Shown in pieces: positions 2,005 through 59,149 of a DNA stretch of 64,000 nucleotides. The translations under genes and the position numbers were made by a program. Where the stretch lies: IMG/VR virus record IMGVR_UViG_3300042889_002115, positions 34,930-98,929 of that record; one strand, written 5' to 3'. The notes below the pieces were generated by a model. It saw only the letters and a list, made by a program, of their open reading frames with translations. It had not been told where the DNA came from and did no database searches. The stretch is from a virus. How positions within the stretch are numbered: position 1 is the stretch's first letter; each line of letters opens with the position of its first letter.

Positions 2005-2598
2005 ATGTCAAACTTGGTACCAATGGTGCTGGAACAAACAGCCAAGGGCGAACGCAGCTACGATATCTACAGCCGTTTGCTCCGAGATCGCATCATCATG
2101 CTGCACACTGATGTGAATGAAAATTCAGCCAGCCTGATTGTGAGTCAGCTGTTGTTTTTGGAAGCAGACAATCCTGACAAAGACATCAGTTTTTACATCA
2201 ACTCACCAGGTGGCGCAGTCACAGCAGGCATGGCCATCTATGATACCATGCAGTTTATCAAATGTGATGTGCAGACCATTGTGATGGGGCAGGCATGCAG
2301 CATGGGCAGTTTGTTGGCACAAGCAGGCGCAGCAGGCAAACGCAGCATCCTGGCCAATGCACGACACATGATTCACCAGCCGTCGGGCGGAGCTCGTGGC
2401 CAGGCCACAGACATGCTGATTCAGGTGGAGGAAATTCTTGCCATGAAAAAGAACCTGACCGAGATCTATGTTGATCACAACTCAGCAGGCAAAACGTTTG
2501 ATCAGCTGAGTGCCGACATGGAACGGGATAACTACATGAGTGCAGATCAAGCAGTTGCTTATGGTCTTGCCGACAAAGTTATTTCTAAACGTGACTAA
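2005..2598 (+). CDS. clpP: ATP-dependent Clp protease proteolytic subunit
   Basis: A 197-aa protein, the normal length of mature ClpP. It should form the barrel peptidase that degrades substrates fed by a Clp ATPase. Catalytic residues are visible: Ser99 in G-Q-A-C-S-M-G-S, His124 in M-I-H-Q-P, Asp175 in E-R-D-N-Y-M-S-A. The strand/turn motif [10 protein letters not shown] is intact. The ATG at 2005 is chosen because the ClpP N-terminal pattern begins there and a promoter lies just upstream; a longer frame runs through the leader. A ClpA homologue with a ClpP-docking tripeptide lies at 56891, so a phage-owned ClpAP is plausible. Confidence 0.93.
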
Positions 2599-3907
2599 TC
2601 CTAACATTTTTTGTAGCACACCCTGGTACGAACTGCACATCTATTGGGATGGCAGTCTGGGTATCTGCTGCGCCGAAGCACACAAACTGTACTCGCCTGA
2701 CAGCAGATACAACATAGCTCGCATGAGCATTGTGGAATGGTTCAATTCTGAACCAGTGAAACAATTTAGAACTAGAATTTCTGGAAATGCTCGTATATCT
2801 CAATGCCGTCGTTGTTATGATGAGGAAGATTTTGGTGGCAATAGTCGTCGGCAACGATCCAATCAAAAAAGTGTAATCTTTGAACAAGCATTTGATGAAA
2901 GTTTTCAGCAAAGTCCGGGGCACCAGTATTTTGTAAATAGTGCTAATAACAATGGTGCAACTGAAACCTACCCAATAGACATGCACATTGATTTAGGCAA
3001 TCACTGTAATCTTGCCTGTAAAATGTGCTTCCCTCGGGCCAGTAGTAAAATCGCAATGCAAGAAGTAAAATGGGGCATCGAATCCAGTAAACAGTATGTT
3101 GGTACTGATTGGACCAGAGATCAGTTGGTCTGGAACAATTTTAAAACCCAACTGGTAAACATTCACAAATTAAAAAATATTCACTTTATGGGCGGTGAGA
3201 CTCTGATCTCTCCAAGATTTGAGGACCTGGTGGACACACTAACAGCACATGAGCGATTTGATGTGGGGTTTAGTTTTGTGACCAATGGCACCACGGTAAA
3301 TCCTGCATTGATGAACAAGCTAAAAAAATTCAGTAGAGTAGGAATAGAAGTCAGTATTGAAACAACCACTCCACACAACTCCTATGTAAGACAAGGCACA
3401 GACACCAGTCAAGTGCTGAAAAACATAGCCTGGTATCAGTCACAGGCCAACAATACCACTATTTCAGTAGCTCTGCGTCCAGCAATCAGTATGTTGACCA
3501 TTGGATATTATTCTTCTTTGTTGGAGTATGCCTGGCACAATCAGTTGATCATAAAATCGTTGTTGGTAACAGATCCAGATTTTTTAAATGCCAGCAATCT
3601 CCCAACTGATGTGAAACAGCATTACTCTGGAACATTTGACAAAATCATCTCAAAATCGTCCCACATCACAGTTGATCCAGATTACAACGCTAGTGATCCC
3701 AACAATTATCAAACTGTGATTCAACAACAGGCTCACATGTGCAAACAATTGTTGAACACACCGGCTCACCACAACAGTTTGCACAATCATCGACTACTGG
3801 TAGAGCATTGTCAGCGATGGGACAAGGTGTACGGGCACAACGCAACAGTGCTGTATCCTGAACTGCAAGACATCTGGACTCAATATGACTACACTGGTTC
3901 AACTTGA
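2591..3907 (+). CDS. Radical SAM protein with N-terminal twitch/SPASM-like cysteine region
   Basis: A 438-aa protein starting with GTG at 2591, overlapping the end of clpP by 8 nt. The radical SAM cluster motif is C139-x3-C143-x2-C146. The preceding 130 residues contain C8, C26-C27 and C72-x2-C75 in a W-D-G-S-L-G-I-C-C context, like the auxiliary-cluster (SPASM/twitch) region usually found C-terminally. M-G-G-E-T at about 199 is the SAM-binding GGE motif. The substrate is unknown; such enzymes often modify peptides or sugars. The next gene overlaps it by 23 nt, suggesting a coupled partner. A longer frame (from 2540) is less likely because it lies within clpP. Confidence 0.85.
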
Positions 3908-34901: not shown

Positions 34902-35141
34902 ATGGAACACCCACTCATAGGCAATCTTGACGACCAAAGCACAGATCAACTGACTGCTCAAATCAGTGATCTTTCTCGAAAATTAGGCATTGCTAGCCGA
35001 ACTGGCAATGCCCATTTGTGTAATCAAATCCGCATGGCCTTGGAGAGTTATCAAACCAAGTATCAAGAAAAACTTCAGGCTGACTACAATCGTCGCCTGG
35101 CCGACGCCAAGATTGACACAACCAGGATCGATATACAATGA
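34902..35141 (+). CDS. Conserved small phage protein, 79 aa
   Basis: M-E-H-P-L-I-G-N-L-D-D-Q-S, then S-R-T-G-N-A-H-L-C-N-Q-I-R-M-A-L-E-S-Y: a pattern conserved in T4-like phages. Mostly helical. It has a strong promoter but no room for a ribosome site. ATGA overlap with the next gene. Function unknown. Confidence 0.82.
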   Translation: MEHPLIGNLDDQSTDQLTAQISDLSRKLGIASRTGNAHLCNQIRMALESYQTKYQEKLQADYNRRLADAKIDTTRIDIQ

Positions 35142-35737
35142 ACGTTAGATTACAAATCAATCTAGAATTTCCTGCTGGCCTCTACATTGGAGATCAACTG
35201 CAACTCAATTGGTATTCAGTCAGTGTGCAGTTATGTACCGCCACAGGAGATCCTGATCAAACCAACACGGCCATGGACCGTCTCAAGACGTTTGTGTACG
35301 CAGAGTTAGCAGACACTGTGTTTATCAATCAAGAAGATGCTGAACGGGCCCAGATGCTGGACTTGTTGGGAATAAACATTACTACTTTGCCCGAAGAACC
35401 TGTTGACCAAATTGTGGGTCTCATGCTACACTGCAAACTAAATGCTGTCATGGAAGATCGCATGATTGTGGAACGCTTGGACATTGCCAGCAGCTTGGGA
35501 GACGATGTGTTTTACCTGCATGAACATGGTGATGCTGTGGGACCATTTCAGGCTGCTGGCTGGTGGTCGGTCAGCGACACCACACACAATTCACTCACAC
35601 CGATTGAAACACACGAAAATGTAGTTCATGTTCCAGTCACTGGTTGGAGCAAATACAATCTAAATTGGCCTGATTCCGCAGGCCCAGAATCGGGAAAAAC
35701 AGTGAGTTTTGGCAAACTAAACAAAAATGCAAACTAA
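35138..35737 (+). CDS. Hypothetical protein, 199 aa
   Basis: N-terminal beta segment (V-R-L-Q-I-N-L-E-F-P-A-G-L-Y-I-G-D-Q-L), then a helical part and a C-terminal Trp-rich region (A-A-G-W-W-S-V-S-D-T). No motif recognised. Coupled to neighbours by a 4-nt and an 11-nt overlap. Confidence 0.7.
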   Translation: MNVRLQINLEFPAGLYIGDQLQLNWYSVSVQLCTATGDPDQTNTAMDRLKTFVYAELADTVFINQEDAERAQMLDLLGINITTLPEEPVDQIVGLMLHCKLNAVMEDRMIVERLDIASSLGDDVFYLHEHGDAVGPFQAAGWWSVSDTTHNSLTPIETHENVVHVPVTGWSKYNLNWPDSAGPESGKTVSFGKLNKNAN

Positions 35738-36245
35738 CACTGTGGGCGAAATTGTTCTAGATGAGCAAGATCTTTGTGATCTTGTGATGCAGGGCCGATC
35801 TATTGCTAACCTGAAAAGAGTCACCGTAGATCACTCAGTGGATCTGGAACAACTGATCTTTGTGCTAGAAGACCCTGCTGCCCTGACCTGGACCCGGCCC
35901 GCAGACAGTAATACCAGTGTGTTGGACTGGGACTTGGTACAGCAACAACACTGGCACATGCCCGAACAATATGCTGTGTTAGACATTGCTGCTTATGTAC
36001 TGGGCCTGTGCTCAACTGACGCAGAACTGCAACGGGCCGGGCACGAACTCATGCTGTATCAAGAACGAGGTCTGTTTGATCTTTTGAAATATCTCAAGTA
36101 CCTGGTGGATGTGATGACTGACAATCATGTGATCTGGGGTGTGGGTCGAGGCAGCAGTGTGTCCAGTCATGTGCTATACTTGTTGGGTGTGCACAGAATT
36201 AATTCTATGTTCTATGATTTAGACATAGACGAGTTCCTGCGTTAA
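35727..36245 (+). CDS. Protein with C-family DNA polymerase-like G-R-G-S-S motif, 172 aa
   Basis: The last 40 residues, W-G-V-G-R-G-S-S-V-S-S-H-V-L-Y-L-L-G-V-H (from residue 137), strongly resemble the G-R-G-S-A-A-G-S-L-V-A-Y-x-L-G-I segment of bacterial DNA polymerase III alpha, next to its active site. The protein stops at D-E-F-L-R, where the polymerase palm would continue with its catalytic aspartates. The N-terminal part is helical. It cannot be a polymerase alone; it may be a relic, one piece of a split protein, or a nucleotide-binding factor. Confidence 0.7.
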   Translation: MQTNTVGEIVLDEQDLCDLVMQGRSIANLKRVTVDHSVDLEQLIFVLEDPAALTWTRPADSNTSVLDWDLVQQQHWHMPEQYAVLDIAAYVLGLCSTDAELQRAGHELMLYQERGLFDLLKYLKYLVDVMTDNHVIWGVGRGSSVSSHVLYLLGVHRINSMFYDLDIDEFLR

Positions 36246-36266: not shown

Positions 36267-36479
36267 ATGACCAAAGATATTCATCGATCAGCAAATGGCA
36301 AACAAGTAGATATGGGTTCCTTGCGGCTCCGCAACGAACATGTACGAGCAGTAGGCAACATGCAAGTCAATGCTCGTGGAGACCTAGTGGATGACAAAAA
36401 CCAAGTGATCTCAACCAAGAATCAACAAGTGACTCAAACCTACGACAAACAAGTGACCAATCCCAAAGGCAGCAAATGA
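36267..36479 (+). CDS. Conserved small phage protein, 70 aa
   Basis: Hydrophilic; contains H-R-S-A-N-G-K-Q-V-D-M-G-S-L-R-L-R-N-E and V-N-A-R-G-D-L-V, known to me from other T4-like genomes. An AGGAG site and a TAAATAC box (36243-36249) precede it. ATGA overlap with the GroES-like gene. Confidence 0.78.
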   Translation: MTKDIHRSANGKQVDMGSLRLRNEHVRAVGNMQVNARGDLVDDKNQVISTKNQQVTQTYDKQVTNPKGSK

Positions 36480-36877
36480 TCAAAGCAGCATACTCGGCAC
36501 ACAGAATTGATCGTGACAAACTGCGCCCGCTGGGCAAATCGGTGATTGTGAGTGACATGAACTTTGAAGAGCGTATCAGCACTGGCGGTATTATTATCAT
36601 GACCGACAATGGCAAAAGCACAGGTATTAGACCACGCTGGGGTCAAGTGTATGCAGTGGGTCCAGACCAACAGGATGTAAAAGTCCATGACTGGGTGTGT
36701 GTGGAACACGGGCGTTGGACTCGTGGCATAGACATTGAAGATGAAAATGGTAAAATTACTCTACGTCGAGTTGATCCCAAAGACATCATGATGACTGCTG
36801 ATCAAAAGCCAGACGATCTTACTTTCTCTGGAGCAATTCACGTGGAAGCCAAACCCAGTCACATGCAGCACAACTGA
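36476..36877 (+). CDS. GroES-like cochaperonin, 133 aa
   Basis: L-R-P-L-G-K-S-V-I-V-S-D matches the GroES start, E-E-R-I-S-T-G-G-I-I-I-M-T-D the mobile-loop region, and W-G-Q-V-Y-A-V-G-P the following strands. T4 gp31 is the functional analogue: it caps host GroEL to fold the capsid protein. The 30-residue C-terminal tail is extra. This fits a phage that brings its own folding aids (DnaJ at 56068). Confidence 0.75.
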   Translation: MIKAAYSAHRIDRDKLRPLGKSVIVSDMNFEERISTGGIIIMTDNGKSTGIRPRWGQVYAVGPDQQDVKVHDWVCVEHGRWTRGIDIEDENGKITLRRVDPKDIMMTADQKPDDLTFSGAIHVEAKPSHMQHN

Positions 36878-37364: not shown

Positions 37365-38123
37365 ATGCACAAACCAACCCACAATCAGACTGTAAGGTCG
37401 TTGCAGATAACTAATCATCTGCTGAGTTTGGCTGGAATTTTTTATGTGGTTTATACATCACAATGGATTTGGTTATTGACAGCATTGTTGACTTATTGGT
37501 TCATTGGAGTTTTTGGAATAAACATTGGACTTCACCGACTGTTGAGTCACAGAAGTTTTAAAACTTATTCCTGGTTTGAAAAATTTGTAAGCGTAATTGG
37601 AGTCATCACAACTGTGGGATCTCCCTTGGCCTGGGTGGCTATTCATAGGCAGCATCATCGTGCTGCTGAAACTCCTGAAGACCCCCATAGTCCGTATCAA
37701 ATTGGTAACTTACGTGCCTGGTTTGGTATCTGGTCCCTGATTAAATTAGATACTAAACTAGTAAGAGACATGAGGCAAGATCGTTTTCAGCGTTGGTTGC
37801 ATCGCAACTATATCTGGGTAATTGCTGTCTATGCGTTGATATTATTGACGTTATGGGGGCCATTGGGCGTGATTTTTGGATATTGTTTGCCCGCCCTGTT
37901 GTGTTTACACTCAAGCAGTGCAATCATTGTGATTGCTCACAGGCATGGTTACAAGACACACAAATGTCGTGACGAAAGCCGTAACAGCTGGATTGCCAAT
38001 ATTATTACTCTGGGCGAAGGATGGCACAACAATCATCATGCCAAGCCATACGCCTGGAGTAACTGGGAAAAGTGGTGGGAATGGGATGTTCCTGCAGTGA
38101 TTATCTGGGCAATTAAAAAATGA
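37365..38123 (+). CDS. Membrane fatty-acid desaturase 1, 252 aa
   Basis: All three His boxes of the acyl-CoA/acyl-lipid desaturase family are present: H57-R-L-L-S-H62-R, H94-R-Q-H97-H98-R, and G-W-H221-N-N-H224-H225. Four membrane segments flank them. It should insert a double bond into membrane acyl chains, using a di-iron centre and electrons from a host donor. First of four consecutive desaturases with overlapping starts. The region is visibly richer in A and T than the early region. Confidence 0.9.
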   Translation: MHKPTHNQTVRSLQITNHLLSLAGIFYVVYTSQWIWLLTALLTYWFIGVFGINIGLHRLLSHRSFKTYSWFEKFVSVIGVITTVGSPLAWVAIHRQHHRAAETPEDPHSPYQIGNLRAWFGIWSLIKLDTKLVRDMRQDRFQRWLHRNYIWVIAVYALILLTLWGPLGVIFGYCLPALLCLHSSSAIIVIAHRHGYKTHKCRDESRNSWIANIITLGEGWHNNHHAKPYAWSNWEKWWEWDVPAVIIWAIKK

Positions 38124-38836
38124 CATTTTATTATTTCTCAAGATTATTGCAAGTTATAACATTTGCATTTTCTCTGTATGTGTTTGATTGGCAGTATTTT
38201 ATAATTGCAGTTGTTGTAGGCTGGGTGCTGGCTGGTTTCAGTATAAGTGTAATTTTGCATAGACAAATTTGCCACAATGCATTCAAATTCAGAAATAAAC
38301 TAGTAGAATTTTTGAGTTATACAATATTGGTTATTACTGGCCAAAGCTCACCGTTGTCCTGGGCTATAATACATCGACAACATCACTTGCATACTGACAC
38401 AGAACTAGACCCACAGAGTCATCGAATTGTAGGGCATTGGCGCACATTGTTTTCTTGGTACAAGCCTAACAAAGTAAATCCTAGACAAGTAGTTGATCTA
38501 TTGGCAAATACCAGAGTGATGTTTTTGCATCGGCACATAGATAAACTATTTTTAACTTATGCTGCAATTATGATAGCAGTTAGCCCAATACTATTTTTGT
38601 ATGCTGTTGGTGTGGTCCCTGTCGTTGCCTATTTGTTTATTGGTATAATCAACACATTTGGACACCGTGATGAACAACGCATACACGGCACCTATGCTGC
38701 TAATTTGCCATTTGCTGCAATGTTTTGGGGAGAGAGCTATCACAAAACACACCACTTGACTCCCAGGGCCCAGCAACTAGGTCAATACGATTTTGGTTTT
38801 TACATAATACAAATATTGAAAAAACAACATGAATAA
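38120..38836 (+). CDS. Membrane fatty-acid desaturase 2 (divergent), 238 aa
   Basis: His boxes H47-R-Q-I-C-H52, H85-R-Q-H88-H89 and Y-H208-K-T-H211-H212 are complete, but the context of the third (G-E-S-Y-H-K-T-H-H) is unlike desaturases 1 and 3, suggesting another substrate or position. Four membrane spans. ATGA overlap with desaturase 1. Confidence 0.86.
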   Translation: MTFYYFSRLLQVITFAFSLYVFDWQYFIIAVVVGWVLAGFSISVILHRQICHNAFKFRNKLVEFLSYTILVITGQSSPLSWAIIHRQHHLHTDTELDPQSHRIVGHWRTLFSWYKPNKVNPRQVVDLLANTRVMFLHRHIDKLFLTYAAIMIAVSPILFLYAVGVVPVVAYLFIGIINTFGHRDEQRIHGTYAANLPFAAMFWGESYHKTHHLTPRAQQLGQYDFGFYIIQILKKQHE

Positions 38837-39587
38837 ACATGCAATGCTAGTTATTGTCCCATTCCATCTTTTGGCCGTGGTGGGGTTGTTTTTTGTTGAC
38901 CAGTATTGGCCCTGGGCAATCGCGTTCTTTGTGCTTTTTGGAATCATTGGCAACGGGGTCGCTGGACACAGATATTTTGCGCACAGATCTTTTCAGGTGG
39001 CCAAGTGGTTGCATCCAGTATTGACCTACCTCAATGTTATGTCTGCATTTGCACCACCCACATACTGGGTGATACAACATGCACATCATCACAGAACATC
39101 AGACAAGAACGAAGATATTCATAGCCCTCGACGAGGACTTTGGCAATCTTGGTATGGGTGGTTGTTTGATCAGCCCTATGTAGAATTTATGTTGAGTAAC
39201 AAAATGGCAGTGGCCAAGGCAGTGATCAAAAGCCGAGTACAGTGGGTTGAACGGCATTACTACAAAACATTATTTGTGTCTATTGCTATAGTTGCTGTGA
39301 TAAATTGGCAAGTTGCATTGATGTATTTTGTTGCGTATGCTGCTGAAATGTTTAGAATTGGTGCAGTAAACACAGTTTGTCATAGTTGGGGTTATAGAAA
39401 TCATGACACATCAGATCACAGCAAAAATAACATTTTGGTGGGCATTCTGGGCATGGGATTTGGTTGGCACAACAATCATCATGCTAATCCTTCACGCTTG
39501 ATACTTACCGAACGCTGGTGGGAGATCGACATAGAAGGATACATAGCCTGGCTATTGAGTAGAACACATCAAGGAAAAATTCAATGA
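38829..39587 (+). CDS. Membrane fatty-acid desaturase 3, 252 aa
   Basis: Boxes G-H47-R-Y-F-A-H52, Q-H84-A-H-H87-H88 and G-W-H214-N-N-H217-H218. It is closest in length and third box to desaturase 1. The acidic E-D-I-H-S-P-R after box II is typical of the delta-9 type group. Overlaps the previous gene by 8 nt. Confidence 0.9.
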   Translation: MNKHAMLVIVPFHLLAVVGLFFVDQYWPWAIAFFVLFGIIGNGVAGHRYFAHRSFQVAKWLHPVLTYLNVMSAFAPPTYWVIQHAHHHRTSDKNEDIHSPRRGLWQSWYGWLFDQPYVEFMLSNKMAVAKAVIKSRVQWVERHYYKTLFVSIAIVAVINWQVALMYFVAYAAEMFRIGAVNTVCHSWGYRNHDTSDHSKNNILVGILGMGFGWHNNHHANPSRLILTERWWEIDIEGYIAWLLSRTHQGKIQ

Positions 39588-40360
39588 CATATTATCGAAA
39601 ACATTTTTTTGCAGTTATTTGTGTGCAGATGATGCTGGCAGGTGTAGCTGTTACAGATTTAGCTGTAAACGGCACAACGATATGGTTGTATGCAACATTT
39701 ATCATGTGGTTCTTGATGTACGTGGTCGGAGAAGGCATTTTCCTACACAGATATTTTGCACACAAATCTTTTGAAACTCATCCTGTACTAGCAAAAGTTT
39801 TTTCAGTATTTGCAGCACTTGGCGGATTTGGCGGCCCAATTGGTTATCGCGCAGCTCATATAGGATTACATCATGCGCACTCAGACAAACCTGGAGATTG
39901 CCACAGTCCTGTACAAAATGGATTCTGGTACGCAGCAGTGACCTGGCATTTGCATAACCATAAATTGCCCATGTTACTCTGCAAGTCGCTGCTGAGAGAT
40001 CCATTTTACGTCTGGTTGGAAAATCATGTCATCAGCATTTGGTGGACCACACTTGTGGTATTTGCTTTTATTGACATGAGATTAGCTGTGTATGGTCTAG
40101 GGTTAGCAGGATTTATAGGATTTGTATTTGTTGCAATTACAAATGCCGCGGCTCATACCTACGGCACACGCAGATTTCAAACCGACGACAACAGCCGTAA
40201 TATATCCATCCTGAGTTGGATAACTTGGCAGGGATCATCAGTACTGCAAAACAATCATCATGCACATCCTGGACGATTTCACGACAGCTGGGCCTGGTAT
40301 GAGTTCGACATTGGAAAATGGTTGATTCCACTGATAGCCACCCGAATAAATCAAAGATAG
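39584..40360 (+). CDS. Membrane fatty-acid desaturase 4 with altered third His box, 258 aa
   Basis: Box I H55-R-Y-F-A-H60 is normal. Box II reads H92-I-G-L-H96-H97, one residue longer than usual. Box III reads L-Q-N-N-H225-H226: the first His is replaced by Gln, as in front-end desaturases that use Q-x-x-H-H. It may therefore have a different regiospecificity rather than being inactive. ATGA overlap with desaturase 3. Confidence 0.85.
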   Translation: MTYYRKHFFAVICVQMMLAGVAVTDLAVNGTTIWLYATFIMWFLMYVVGEGIFLHRYFAHKSFETHPVLAKVFSVFAALGGFGGPIGYRAAHIGLHHAHSDKPGDCHSPVQNGFWYAAVTWHLHNHKLPMLLCKSLLRDPFYVWLENHVISIWWTTLVVFAFIDMRLAVYGLGLAGFIGFVFVAITNAAAHTYGTRRFQTDDNSRNISILSWITWQGSSVLQNNHHAHPGRFHDSWAWYEFDIGKWLIPLIATRINQR

Positions 40361-40423: not shown

Positions 40424-41347
40424 ATGAAACAACTATGGGTAGAAAAATATCGTCCTAATACTGTGGACGGATATGTGTTTGTGGATCAAGCACAACGAGA
40501 ACAAGTGGAGTCTTGGATTCGTGATGGATCAATTCCGCATCTAATGCTGAGTGGGTCAGCGGGCACAGGCAAAACTACACTGGCCAAACTGTTGATCAAA
40601 CAACTGGGCGTGGACGAGTATGATGTGATGATGGCCAATGGATCCAAAGAAGCCCGCAAGGTAGAATGGGTTGATCGACTTATCAGTTTCTGTCAGACCA
40701 TGCCGTATGGCAAATTTAAAGTGGTGCTGATTGACGAAGCAGATTACATGAATATTAATTCAGTTCAGCCTGCACTGCGTAACTTGATGGAAGACTACAG
40801 CCAGACCGTGCGGTTTATTTTGACCTGTAACTATCCTCATAAAATTATACCAGCAATACACAGTCGTTGCCAAGGATTTCATATTGCCAAGACTGACCAC
40901 ACAGAATTCACAGCCCGTGCTGCCACAGTACTGGTGTCTGAAGGTGTGGAGTTTGATCTAGATGAACTTGACAGCTATGTCAAGGCCACATACCCTGATC
41001 TTCGCAAGTGTCTAAATTTGTTGCAGCCCAACTCACAATCAGGACAACTGCAGCCCCCCAGTGCCGCAGACAAAAGTGCACGTGACTGGAAGCTGGAGTG
41101 TGTGGACCTGTTTAAAAAGGGTCGAGTTCGCGAGGCACGAACTCTGCTGTGTCAAAGTTCTACTCCTGAAGAAGCCGAAGATATTTTCCGCTGGATGTAC
41201 GACAACCTGGAACTATGGGGCTCGACTCCTGAGCAACAAGATCAAGCTATTGTGATTATTCGCAACGGACTTGTGAGCAACAACGCTGTGGCTGACGTTG
41301 AGATCAATCTAAGTGCTACTCTGATTGAACTGGCAGGAATACAATGA
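40424..41347 (+). CDS. Clamp-loader ATPase subunit (T4 gp44 / RFC-like), 307 aa
   Basis: AAA+ ATPase that loads the sliding clamp on DNA. Motifs: W-V-E-K-Y-R-P at the N-terminus, Walker A G-S-A-G-T-G-K-T-T (44-52), Walker B V-L-I-D-E-A-D (101-107), sensor 1 T-C-N-Y-P, and the S-R-C arginine finger (147-149). Length and motif set match T4 gp44. A promoter and an AAAGGAAAAA ribosome site precede it. The small clamp-loader subunit (gp62) and the clamp were not found in the window. Confidence 0.93.
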   Translation: MKQLWVEKYRPNTVDGYVFVDQAQREQVESWIRDGSIPHLMLSGSAGTGKTTLAKLLIKQLGVDEYDVMMANGSKEARKVEWVDRLISFCQTMPYGKFKVVLIDEADYMNINSVQPALRNLMEDYSQTVRFILTCNYPHKIIPAIHSRCQGFHIAKTDHTEFTARAATVLVSEGVEFDLDELDSYVKATYPDLRKCLNLLQPNSQSGQLQPPSAADKSARDWKLECVDLFKKGRVREARTLLCQSSTPEEAEDIFRWMYDNLELWGSTPEQQDQAIVIIRNGLVSNNAVADVEINLSATLIELAGIQ

Positions 41348-49537: not shown

Positions 49538-50494
49538 ATGATCAAAAAATTATTACTGGTGTTGTTGGCCGTGCCTGTTATGGCTGCTGCCTGGCAACCC
49601 ACCAAACCTGTAACAGTTATCTACCCCAATGGCCCCGGTGCAGGCAACGAAATTTCATTTCGCATTGTGGCCGACATTGTGGAAAGAAAAACCGGTACAG
49701 TATTCCGAGCAGAGCACCGACCAGGCGCAGATGGTAACATTGCTATCAATCACTTTGCCACTGTACCAGCTGATGGATACACTGTGGCCATGCCTGCTTG
49801 CAACTCCAATTGGGTTACAGCAGAAGTTTGGTACCCACAAACAGTCAAGTACAATATGTTTGATTTTGAACCAGTGGCCAACATTGCCAAGAGTCCACTA
49901 GCATTTTGGGCAAACCCTGCTAGCAAAGTAAACACACCTGAAGATTTAATTCGTGAAATTCGAAGCAAGAGCCGGCCACTTAACTTTGCTATCGGCGGCG
50001 GCGGACACAAACTAGCAGTGGAATACCTAACAGATGCACTAGCTGTGCCGGGCGGTGATCGAGTACAAACTGCCATGTACAAAGGTCCAGCGCAAGCATT
50101 GTTGGATGTCATAGGTGGCCATGTGGAATTTGCAGTTACTCCAGTGGGAGTAGGTTATCCCCATGTCAAGGCTGGCAAACTCAAGCTGATTGGTTTGGCC
50201 AGCGAAGTTCCGCTCAAAGGTCTAGAGTCTGCTGAATTAATGAGCAAGTATGCTCCAGGACTCAACTTGTATGGTTGCTGGAACTTGATTCTGCCCAAGG
50301 GCACACCACAAGATGTACAGCAATGGTATCATGACAATTTTGTGCCGGCTATCCGTAGCGCAGAAGCACAAAAGAAGTTTGATGATAATTTGATGTTTAT
50401 CACTCGGAAAGAACACACCCCGGCTGGTGTGCATGCGGCCATGGTTAGACTCAAGTCAGACTGGACTCCGATTGCTAGAAAGGTTGCGCCTTGA
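49538..50494 (+). CDS. Bug/TctC-family periplasmic solute-binding protein, 318 aa
   Basis: Signal peptide M-I-K-K-L-L-L-V-L-L-A-V-P-V-M-A-A-A, then W-Q-P-T-K-P-V-T-V-I-Y-P and G-P-G-A-G-N-E, the typical first strand and ligand loop of Bug proteins; later H-R-P-G-A-D-G-N-I-A and P-A-D-G-Y-T also fit. The family captures carboxylates or similar solutes for tripartite transporters and is hugely expanded in Burkholderiales. No transporter membrane subunits are nearby, so the phage protein would need host subunits, or it may have another role such as ligand sensing. Confidence 0.9.
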   Translation: MIKKLLLVLLAVPVMAAAWQPTKPVTVIYPNGPGAGNEISFRIVADIVERKTGTVFRAEHRPGADGNIAINHFATVPADGYTVAMPACNSNWVTAEVWYPQTVKYNMFDFEPVANIAKSPLAFWANPASKVNTPEDLIREIRSKSRPLNFAIGGGGHKLAVEYLTDALAVPGGDRVQTAMYKGPAQALLDVIGGHVEFAVTPVGVGYPHVKAGKLKLIGLASEVPLKGLESAELMSKYAPGLNLYGCWNLILPKGTPQDVQQWYHDNFVPAIRSAEAQKKFDDNLMFITRKEHTPAGVHAAMVRLKSDWTPIARKVAP

Positions 50495-56067: not shown

Positions 56068-56835
56068 ATGGATCACTACAAAACACTTGATGTTGCTCGT
56101 ACTGCCACTCCGGACGAAATAAAAAAAGCCTATCGCAAGCTGGCTTCTCAACATCATCCTGACAAAGGCGGCAACACTGTCAAGTTTCAAGAACTGCAAA
56201 CTGCATACGATACCCTGAGCGATCCTGCCCAGCGAGCTGAATACGACAACCCTAGACCGCAGTTTTCAGGATTCCCCGGCGGTGGATTCAACATGCACGA
56301 CATCTTTGGACAGATGTTTGGTCAGCAGTCCGGACAAACATCTCGCAGAAATCATGTGCGTATGACTGTGTGGATCACCTTGCTGGATGTGGCGCAAGGC
56401 GGCAGTCGCACTGTGAATGTAGGCACATCAACAGGGTCCAGCACCGTGCAAATTGAAATCCCAAAAGGCATCAACGATGGAGACAATGTTCAATACAGTG
56501 GCGTGGGCCCAGGTGGTGTAGACCTGATTGTGCAATTTCGAGTCCGCCCAGATGCCAGATGGCGCCGAGAAGACCTCAATCTCTACTGCGAGCATCGTGT
56601 GCCAATCTGGGACCTGATTCTAGGAGTCGAGACCGAAGTGATCAATATACTAGGACACCAATTGGTTGTGGGTGTGCCGCAAGGCACTCAACCGGGCACC
56701 ACCATGCGACTGAAAGGACATGGCCTGCAGGATCGTCACGGCCAAACAGGAGATCTAATGTTACGTGTTCAAGGCGAAATACCCAAAACAATTGCCCCAG
56801 AAATTGTGGCGGCCATACAACAATACCAAAAATAA
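56068..56835 (+). CDS. DnaJ/CbpA-like cochaperone, 255 aa
   Basis: J domain (1-60) with H30-P-D32 in H-H-P-D-K-G-G; Gly/Phe-rich linker (70-90); then the two beta-sandwich substrate domains, lacking the Cys-rich zinc region of DnaJ. It stimulates host DnaK and delivers clients. Adjacent to clpA, it may help the phage unfold and refold or degrade proteins. The J-domain start (D-H-Y-K-T-L-D-V) fixes the ATG. Confidence 0.92.
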   Translation: MDHYKTLDVARTATPDEIKKAYRKLASQHHPDKGGNTVKFQELQTAYDTLSDPAQRAEYDNPRPQFSGFPGGGFNMHDIFGQMFGQQSGQTSRRNHVRMTVWITLLDVAQGGSRTVNVGTSTGSSTVQIEIPKGINDGDNVQYSGVGPGGVDLIVQFRVRPDARWRREDLNLYCEHRVPIWDLILGVETEVINILGHQLVVGVPQGTQPGTTMRLKGHGLQDRHGQTGDLMLRVQGEIPKTIAPEIVAAIQQYQK

Positions 56836-56837
56836 AC

Positions 56838-56866
56838 TTGCATTGCAGTTGGCATTGCGTTATAAT
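56838..56866 (+). promoter_or_regulatory. Sigma70-type promoter of clpA
   Basis: TTGCAT (56838-56843), 17 nt, TATAAT (56861-56866). Confidence 0.78.
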
Positions 56867-56890
56867 AAACAAAACAACTCAAGGATTCCA

Positions 56891-59149
56891 ATGACCCCTA
56901 CTCCCGAAATTGAACACATTGTTGATCAGGCTGTGAAAATTGCACAGGAGCGGCAGCACGAATATGTGACCTCTGAACACCTGCTGTTGAGCATGATTCG
57001 ATATGCACCTTTTAGAAAAACTGTGGCCAATTTTGGTGTGGACACTGACCACATGGACCAGGAAATTGATGTATATCTAAAAAGCCTTGTGAGCCTGGTC
57101 AACCCCGACGTTGATGTGCCTAAAAAGACACAGGCCCTGGAACGCATTTTTAACCGTGCCAACGTACAGGTCATGTTTACCGGTCGTCGCAACCTTACCG
57201 TGATTGATCTGTATCTTTCAATCATGAGCGAAGGCAATAGTCACGCACAATATTTCATGTTGAAATTTGGCATGAAGAAATCAGAGTTTGTGGAGTTCTG
57301 GCAAAAGAATTATCGACCCACTGATGTCAAACTCAGTAGCAGCCAGGCCGACAGCATTCTAAACGAATACTGCACTAGTCTTACTGCTTGTGCTGAAAAA
57401 GATCAGTTAGAACCCATGATTGGTCGAAGCAAAGAACTGGAAGAAATGATCACCGTGCTGGCTCGACGCTTCAAGGCCAATGTGCTCATGGTTGGCGATC
57501 CTGGTGTGGGCAAAACACACATTGTGGATGGCCTGGCACAGGAAATCATTGCCGGACGTGTGCCCGAGTTCCTAAAAGGGCATGAAGTCTGGAGTCTTGA
57601 AATTGGCAGCCTGCTGGCAGGTTCTAAATATCGCGGCGAGTTTGAAGAAAAATTTAAAGCAGTTATTTCTGCTCTGGAATCCAAGAAAAACTGTATCCTG
57701 TTTGTGGACGAAGCGCACACCATGAAAGGTGCGGGTGCAGGGTCAACTGCAGGGCTGGACTTTGCCAACATGCTGAAGCCGGCTATTACCAAAGGCAACC
57801 TCAAGGTTGTGGCGTCAACCACCTGGGAAGAGTACTACGAAAGCTTTGAAAAAGATCGTGCACTCATGCGTAGATTCTATCGACTCAGCATTGACGAGCC
57901 CGATGCAGAAACCACGGAAAAGATCCTGATTGGCCTCAGTCCGCGCCTGGAACAGTTTCACAATGTGTTGATTGACACAGAAGCCATGATCACTGCAGTG
58001 GAACTGGCTGCTCGTTACATTCATGACCGCAAGAATCCTGACAAAAGTATTGACATCATTGATGCTGCTTGTGCTCGAGAGCGTGTGAAAGATCAAGGCA
58101 CAGTCACCGTCACTCGAGACATGATTGAACAGCAGGTGGCTCGCATGACTGGCGTGCCCACGGACAAACTGCAAAACGAGCGATCAGCCAAGATTGTGGA
58201 ACTGGAATCAAACATCAAGCAAAAACTGTATGGGCAAGACTCAGCTGTGGACGCTGTGCTGGATCGAGTGTACATCAGCTTTGCTGGCATCAGCAACGAA
58301 AAACGACCCATGGCCAGTTTCTTGTTCTTGGGTCCAACCGGTACAGGCAAAACTGAACTGGCACGATTGTTGAGCCAAAATCTTGACATGCATCTACTCA
58401 AGTATGACATGAGCGAGTTTCAAGAGCGGCACAGTGTGAGCGGCTTGATCGGTGCTCCCCCAGGCTATGTGGGTTTTGAAGATGGCAACGTGGGCGGCGG
58501 CAAACTGATTTCTGACATCAGTAAGAATCCGTTCAGCATCATCTTGTTTGACGAAATTGAAAAAGCACATCCTGACGTCAGTAACATCTTGCTACAGATG
58601 CTGGACGAAGGTGTGATTACCAGCAGTGGTGGCAAACGAGTCAACGTCAAGAACTGTATCATTATCTTGACATCCAACCTGGGTGCTGCTGCCAGTGAAG
58701 TCAACAACATTGGCTTTGGTTCGCAGGAAAAAAGCGGAGAAGATGAGCGAGCACTCAAGGAGTTTTTCAAACCTGAAATGCGTAACCGTATTGATCAGAT
58801 TGTGAAGTTCTCCAAGCTGGACACCCTGGCTATCAAGAAAGTGGTTGTGAAGTTTGCCGAAGAACTCAAGACCAGCTTGCTGGCCAAGAACATTCGACTC
58901 AACATGACCGAAGCTGTGATTGACATGCTGGCTGACAAAGGATATGACTCCAAGATGGGTGCACGACCCCTGAGTCGCAAGATTGACCAGTTGATTCGAG
59001 TGCCACTCAGCAAGCGAATCTTGTTTGATCGGCTGGCAGACTGCGACATCACTGCGGACATGAATGGTGATGATGTGGTGTTTGATGCAGTGGCTCACGA
59101 AATTCCTGTGGTAGGCGATGACGGAATTATTCGATTTCCCACTCCATGA
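56891..59149 (+). CDS. clpA: ClpA-type AAA+ unfoldase, 752 aa
   Basis: N-domain (1-150), AAA-1 with Walker A G-D-P-G-V-G-K-T (202-209) and F-V-D-E-A-H (271-276), AAA-2 with G-P-T-G-T-G-K-T (481-488), I-L-F-D-E-I-E-K-A-H and R-N-R-I-D. There is no ClpB-type middle coiled coil. N-I-G-F-G (606-610) between Walker B-2 and R-N-R-I-D sits where ClpA has its I-G-L/F ClpP-docking loop. It should unfold proteins and feed ClpP. ATG at 56891 lies after AAGGA and 25 nt from the promoter -10; a longer frame starts inside dnaJ. Confidence 0.92.
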   Translation: MTPTPEIEHIVDQAVKIAQERQHEYVTSEHLLLSMIRYAPFRKTVANFGVDTDHMDQEIDVYLKSLVSLVNPDVDVPKKTQALERIFNRANVQVMFTGRRNLTVIDLYLSIMSEGNSHAQYFMLKFGMKKSEFVEFWQKNYRPTDVKLSSSQADSILNEYCTSLTACAEKDQLEPMIGRSKELEEMITVLARRFKANVLMVGDPGVGKTHIVDGLAQEIIAGRVPEFLKGHEVWSLEIGSLLAGSKYRGEFEEKFKAVISALESKKNCILFVDEAHTMKGAGAGSTAGLDFANMLKPAITKGNLKVVASTTWEEYYESFEKDRALMRRFYRLSIDEPDAETTEKILIGLSPRLEQFHNVLIDTEAMITAVELAARYIHDRKNPDKSIDIIDAACARERVKDQGTVTVTRDMIEQQVARMTGVPTDKLQNERSAKIVELESNIKQKLYGQDSAVDAVLDRVYISFAGISNEKRPMASFLFLGPTGTGKTELARLLSQNLDMHLLKYDMSEFQERHSVSGLIGAPPGYVGFEDGNVGGGKLISDISKNPFSIILFDEIEKAHPDVSNILLQMLDEGVITSSGGKRVNVKNCIIILTSNLGAAASEVNNIGFGSQEKSGEDERALKEFFKPEMRNRIDQIVKFSKLDTLAIKKVVVKFAEELKTSLLAKNIRLNMTEAVIDMLADKGYDSKMGARPLSRKIDQLIRVPLSKRILFDRLADCDITADMNGDDVVFDAVAHEIPVVGDDGIIRFPTP

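Follow-up and report, generated by a model that had tools for sequence, protein, structure and literature searches.

The open reading frame at positions 35727-36245 (+) of the window, by which we mean the whole stretch of 64,000 nucleotides analysed here (part of the viral record IMGVR_UViG_3300042889_002115), raises the question of what a piece of a bacterial replicase is doing in a phage. A first-pass annotation had described it as a stand-alone fragment of the active-site region of a C-family DNA polymerase, and both the frame of 172 amino acids and this kinship are confirmed by our data. The Pfam family PF07733 (DNA_pol3_alpha) matches residues 101-171 with 31.7 bits (E=1.6e-7), above the Pfam cut-off of 23.9 bits, and the palm-homologous stretch (residues 101-172; 36027-36242, +; positions 24-95 of PF07733) takes in about the last 72 residues of the protein, rather than the 40 originally given. 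NCBIfam models of Pol III alpha recognise the same stretch (best E=2.4e-5) with scores far under their curated cut-offs, as is expected for a fragment. Within its own phage family, phrog_11127 (annotated 'DNA polymerase'), the protein is a full-length member (residues 6-172, E=1.9e-36). A profile built from 18 relatives aligns to residues 319-393 of E. coli DnaE (hhalign, E=5.5e-7, 92% probability), with the N-terminal half that the protein represents placed on DnaE 322-393, and in a search of the PDB the family profile retrieved Pol III alpha chains only and no unrelated fold. Profiles were needed for this, as the single sequence run against the PDB with phmmer returned only one spurious hydrolase. 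The resemblance to Pol III alpha is not a matter of chance.

The position at which the protein ends is equally precise. The phosphate-binding motif GVGRGSS (residues 138-144; 36138-36158, +) is included, and alignment and reading frame then stop together at DnaE position 393, eight residues short of the DxD formed by D401 and D403, so that the claim of an end before the catalytic aspartates holds to the residue. D401, D403 and D555 are the established catalytic residues of the E. coli enzyme. None of the three is present in the window protein, whereas all three are found in a partner family, phrog_11778; by itself, the product of 35727-36245 is not a polymerase. A DLDID near the C-terminus was considered as a cryptic catalytic DxD and rejected, since its aspartates are not conserved in relatives.

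This end point is a property of the whole family, whose proteins have about 160-184 amino acids, always end in EF(L/F/I)x, and number in the dozens among cultured phages and in the hundreds among uncultured ones. In an alignment of 79 relatives of this N-terminal half (hereafter N half), the proteins are 157-183 amino acids long, GxGRGS and a terminal EF are invariant (79/79), and 72 of the 79 have no residue past the last column of the window protein. Against the nearest relative (81% identical, in L002), a dN of about 0.13-0.16 is far below a dS of about 0.8-1.5, which shows that the N half is under purifying selection. Two scans of viral contigs yielded at least 580 relatives each. Among 84,980 prokaryote genomes, in contrast, there were only seven loci; every one belongs to an uncultured or metagenome-assembled genome, and they are probably binned phage. 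Membership extends to the 141 kb phage Slicko01, and the family is thus not confined to jumbo genomes.

The missing half came to light through matches of PF17657 (fingers) in the same genomes that carry the N half. These C halves are ORFs of about 190-215 amino acids belonging to phrog_11778. They open with a few residues followed by DIDID (as in MSA-DIDID), starting 1-18 residues before this motif, and in all 53 aligned copies from viral contigs (set A5) the first aspartate of DxDxD is residue 4 or 5. One annotated start, that of Atu_ph07 gp074 (L020, 2308-2880, -), has been placed too late; an in-frame upstream ATG adds 27 residues, and from there the protein begins MKNIPDIDIDF and includes PDIDIDF. 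The C half is collinear with DnaE, with invariant counterparts of D401, D403, D405, H511, G514, K553, D555, R639, P640, K758, H760 and Y764. It has no PHP domain, no thumb and little of the fingers, which are missing between about 643 and 737 in DnaE numbering. The alignment also has a gap at the canonical fingers motif around RRAMGKK of DnaE, so that catalysis by the pair may differ from that of DnaE. By sequence alone the similarity to DnaE is weak (hhalign E=0.006, probability 6%). In an hmmsearch of the PDB with the C-half profile, the best match reached E=0.018 and the weak matches were all Pol III alpha, the set A5 sequences scanned singly gave no Pfam match, and the C half of phage Phosso matches phrog_405, a family of full-length phage Pol III, at 3e-9. 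The collinear motifs, the Phosso match and the predicted structure together argue for the C half as a part of Pol III alpha.

AlphaFold models of the two halves have a mean pLDDT of 81 (window N half) and 87 (C half from G008). In Foldseek comparisons with the PDB, the best eight matches of the N half and the best eleven of the C half were all Pol III alpha, with probabilities up to 0.99 and 1.00, respectively. The remaining matches had probabilities near zero, except for more C-family polymerases further down the list for the N half. As the best E-values (0.066 for N, 0.002 for C) do not reach 0.001, we take the models as support for a shared palm fold and not as proof of it.

If the N half is one part of a split gene, as the first-pass annotation had offered among other readings, the C half should accompany it, and this is what we observe, with one copy of each half, in every complete relative tested. 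By tblastn, the N half was found in 59 phage records and the C half in 64; Vibrio and Alishewanella phages at first seen only in the C-half search also carry the N half. All 11 named phage records that were searched from end to end contain both; in profile searches, nine of these and contig G002 gave one clear match of each half apiece. Of 13 IMG contigs that are 150 kb or longer and were picked for carrying the N half, 11 also contain the C half. Eight contigs from the clade of the window (G002, G005, G006, G008, G010, G012, G014, G026) have it some 95-108 kb upstream of the N half, and the three long contigs that lack it (G001, G007, G009) break off close to that distance or short of it. A profile search of the window's own 98.9 kb record likewise found no C half. 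Only 71 kb of this record lie upstream of the N half, which places the expected position outside its start, and the absence here and in the three long contigs is probably due to truncated sequence. Pairwise distances among N halves and among C halves are correlated (Mantel r=0.88, 18 pairs), which plain co-inheritance would also produce.

The spacing of the two genes varies widely. In named genomes they are 11-182 kb or more apart. In Slicko01 both halves and the clamp loader fall within 12 kb, and across contigs G033-G036 the halves are separated by about 5-10 kb (about 5 kb in G033, G035 and G036); in the two that were looked at, G033 and G035, the genes in this interval include Cpn10 and gp44. 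In these two contigs (L304 and L303) we also saw by eye an ORF with a nucleotidyltransferase-like start (GSKLYGT.TP.SD.D), either immediately following the C half or a few genes beyond it. No natural fusion of the halves occurred among the best 80 loci retrieved with a concatenated query, and at the few loci where the C half gave the best match, the N half was a separate gene 5-10 kb off. Nor are there intein fragments at the junctions, where the N half ends in EF(L/I/F)(R/K) plus at most one residue.

The genomic neighbourhood is replisome-like. Around the N half, the conserved order is an upstream gene, the N half, a small protein, a Cpn10-like protein and then gp44. The window fits it: the upstream gene (35138-35737, +) overlaps the start of the N half by 11 bp and is kept in near relatives (54% in L005), and downstream follow the small conserved protein phrog_14844 (36267-36479, +), a Cpn10/GroES-like co-chaperonin (36476-36877, +; PF00166, phrog_931) and a clamp-loader AAA+ ATPase like T4 gp44 (40424-41347, +; phrog_168). 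The upstream gene was considered as a third subunit and set aside, as it forms no one clear family across distantly related phages. Between the Cpn10 gene and the clamp loader, the window carries an insert (37365-40360, +) of three fatty-acid-desaturase genes (PF00487) in a row and one more ORF of similar appearance that has no Pfam match; L005 lacks such an insert at this place. The C half, for its part, directly precedes primase/helicase genes in RaK2, CBB, 121Q, Vibrio phage 2.275.O and Slicko01. PADLOC gave no defence-system match. Elsewhere, the window encodes a radical SAM/SPASM protein (2561-3907, +), and a similar-looking ORF was seen by eye near the C half in L024. It also encodes a TctC/Bug-type receptor of a tripartite tricarboxylate transporter (49538-50494, +; PF03401, 3e-24), which is unusual in a phage, and, at 56068-59149 (+), a ClpA/ClpB-like AAA+ protein directly after an ORF whose start resembles, by eye, a DnaJ J-domain.

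Based on these data, the ORF at 35727-36245 is likely the N-terminal, nucleotide- and phosphate-binding subunit of a minimal C-family polymerase in two pieces, with the phrog_11778 product as its most probable partner. In such an enzyme, the two proteins together would rebuild one palm of Pol-beta fold: the GRGS motif of the N half would hold the triphosphate of the dNTP, and the partner, starting at DIDID, would supply the three catalytic aspartates, with DxD and the third Asp holding the metals, as well as a residual fingers segment. As neither half bears an intein piece at the junction, the two are expected to associate non-covalently, and without PHP, thumb and most of the fingers the pair is expected to have low processivity. 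The proximity to gp44 and to primase/helicase genes favours a role at the T4-like replisome, where the pair may act as a helper in primer extension or in lagging-strand or gap filling near gp44, primase and helicase. This fits better than a role as main replicase, which is the B-family enzyme. A B-family polymerase gene is present in 15 of 16 records, the exception being the 98.9 kb record of the window; the G002 copy is located some 41 kb downstream of the N half, a position that here would fall past the record's end. Homology, break point, co-occurrence of the halves, residue conservation and genomic setting are thus shown by the data; assembly, catalysis and the place at the replisome are inferred from them.

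The same observations bear on other readings of the locus. The first-pass annotation had suggested a dominant-negative mimic of the host replicase. Such a protein would attach to the host's Pol III holoenzyme, or to subunits of it, and thereby stop replication of the host; in its favour, the N half resembles the host's DnaE and lacks the catalytic residues. DnaE contacts its partners through PHP, clamp-binding, OB and tau-binding parts. The N half has none of these, it is matched far better by the phage family profile (1.9e-36) than by Pol III alpha profiles (best 2.4e-5), its gene shares a cassette with those of Cpn10 and the clamp loader, and every complete genome that carries it has kept the matching catalytic half. 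We therefore regard a mimic as improbable. The one-to-one co-conservation speaks in the same way against an old capture turned nucleotide sensor, the other function proposed for the protein. A related reading in which both halves are structural or regulatory, for instance coupling dNTP sensing to the clamp loader after loss of catalysis, could appeal to the nearby gp44 and to the fact that activity is not reported in the searchable literature; it seems very improbable to us, because the C half keeps all three catalytic aspartates, for which there would be no obvious need.

A pseudogene or decaying relic of a captured bacterial dnaE might be suspected from the fact that we are dealing with a fragment of a 1160-residue protein, and is hardly credible: length and end point are constant across very diverse phages, the motif is invariant and dN is far below dS, conservation data which in the main refute it. 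More weight, even if it remains unlikely, is due to a pair that assembles on the Pol-beta-fold core as a non-templated two-subunit nucleotidyltransferase, that is a terminal transferase or a nucleotide-modifying or signalling enzyme. The loss of the thumb and most of the fingers, including the region of RRAMGKK in DnaE, the retention of the metal and triphosphate motifs and the presence of a B-family replicase would all agree with it, but the replisome-like neighbourhood and the fingers elements RPGK and FKKSH..YA, retained in common with DnaE, point back to the two-piece polymerase.

In comparison with bacterial DnaE and PolC, the two-piece polymerase shares the GRGS palm motif and the DIDID(F), KxDxL and KSH motifs, collinear across two phage proteins, and differs in having about 365 residues in two chains instead of 1160 in one (E. 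coli), without PHP, thumb, most of the fingers, clamp-binding, OB and tau-binding regions. The split-intein DnaE of cyanobacteria is also a C-family polymerase from two genes. Its break lies in the fingers, and thus at another point, whereas neither phage junction has room for an intein fragment.

A two-piece polymerase of this kind was already predicted in 2021 and is common to many giant phages beside their T4-type polymerase. A truncated alpha subunit had earlier been noted in phage CBB (PMC5259590), and PF07733 is among the genes of cluster PGC_A in a marine survey (PMC9123017). For group 2.2 jumbo phages that have a B-family polymerase, Iyer et al. (2021; PMC7824862) described a minimal Pol III alpha divided between two proteins whose genes lie far apart, and suggested that the two restore an enzyme, with the N half as NTP-binding part and the C half as Mg- and template-binding part. 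Accessions are absent from the text of that study; from its description we infer that phrog_11127 and phrog_11778 are these two proteins. The window is like this system in that its ORF is a full-length phrog_11127 protein whose relatives encode the halves separately and beside a B-family polymerase; it is unlike it in that the partner is not on the record and that the neighbourhood of the N half carries an insert of three or four desaturase genes. The surprise voiced by the first-pass annotation at a C-family piece in a lineage with B-family polymerases is justified by the gene content, although the arrangement itself had been published. To this the present analysis adds where exactly the break lies, a test of pairing, the lack of inteins, the compact clusters and the occurrence in a 141 kb phage.

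In the open-licence literature we found no bench test of the split Pol III; the computational-only prediction of 2021 would now become directly testable, with ready constructs provided by the break point, by the compact clusters and by a pairing that is near-perfect. Should the halves prove to be active together, a phage lineage that otherwise replicates with a eukaryote-like B-family enzyme would possess a C-family polymerase of very small size, and this would bear on the origin of bacterial Pol III. Tentatively, one may go further and picture the smallest known C-family polymerase, a thumbless two-chain palm at the phage primosome (gp61/gp41, gp44) that extends primers or fills gaps beside the B-family replicase, the two sharing the work as Pol alpha and Pol delta do in eukaryotes; the palm may also be close to the core from which bacterial Pol III descends.
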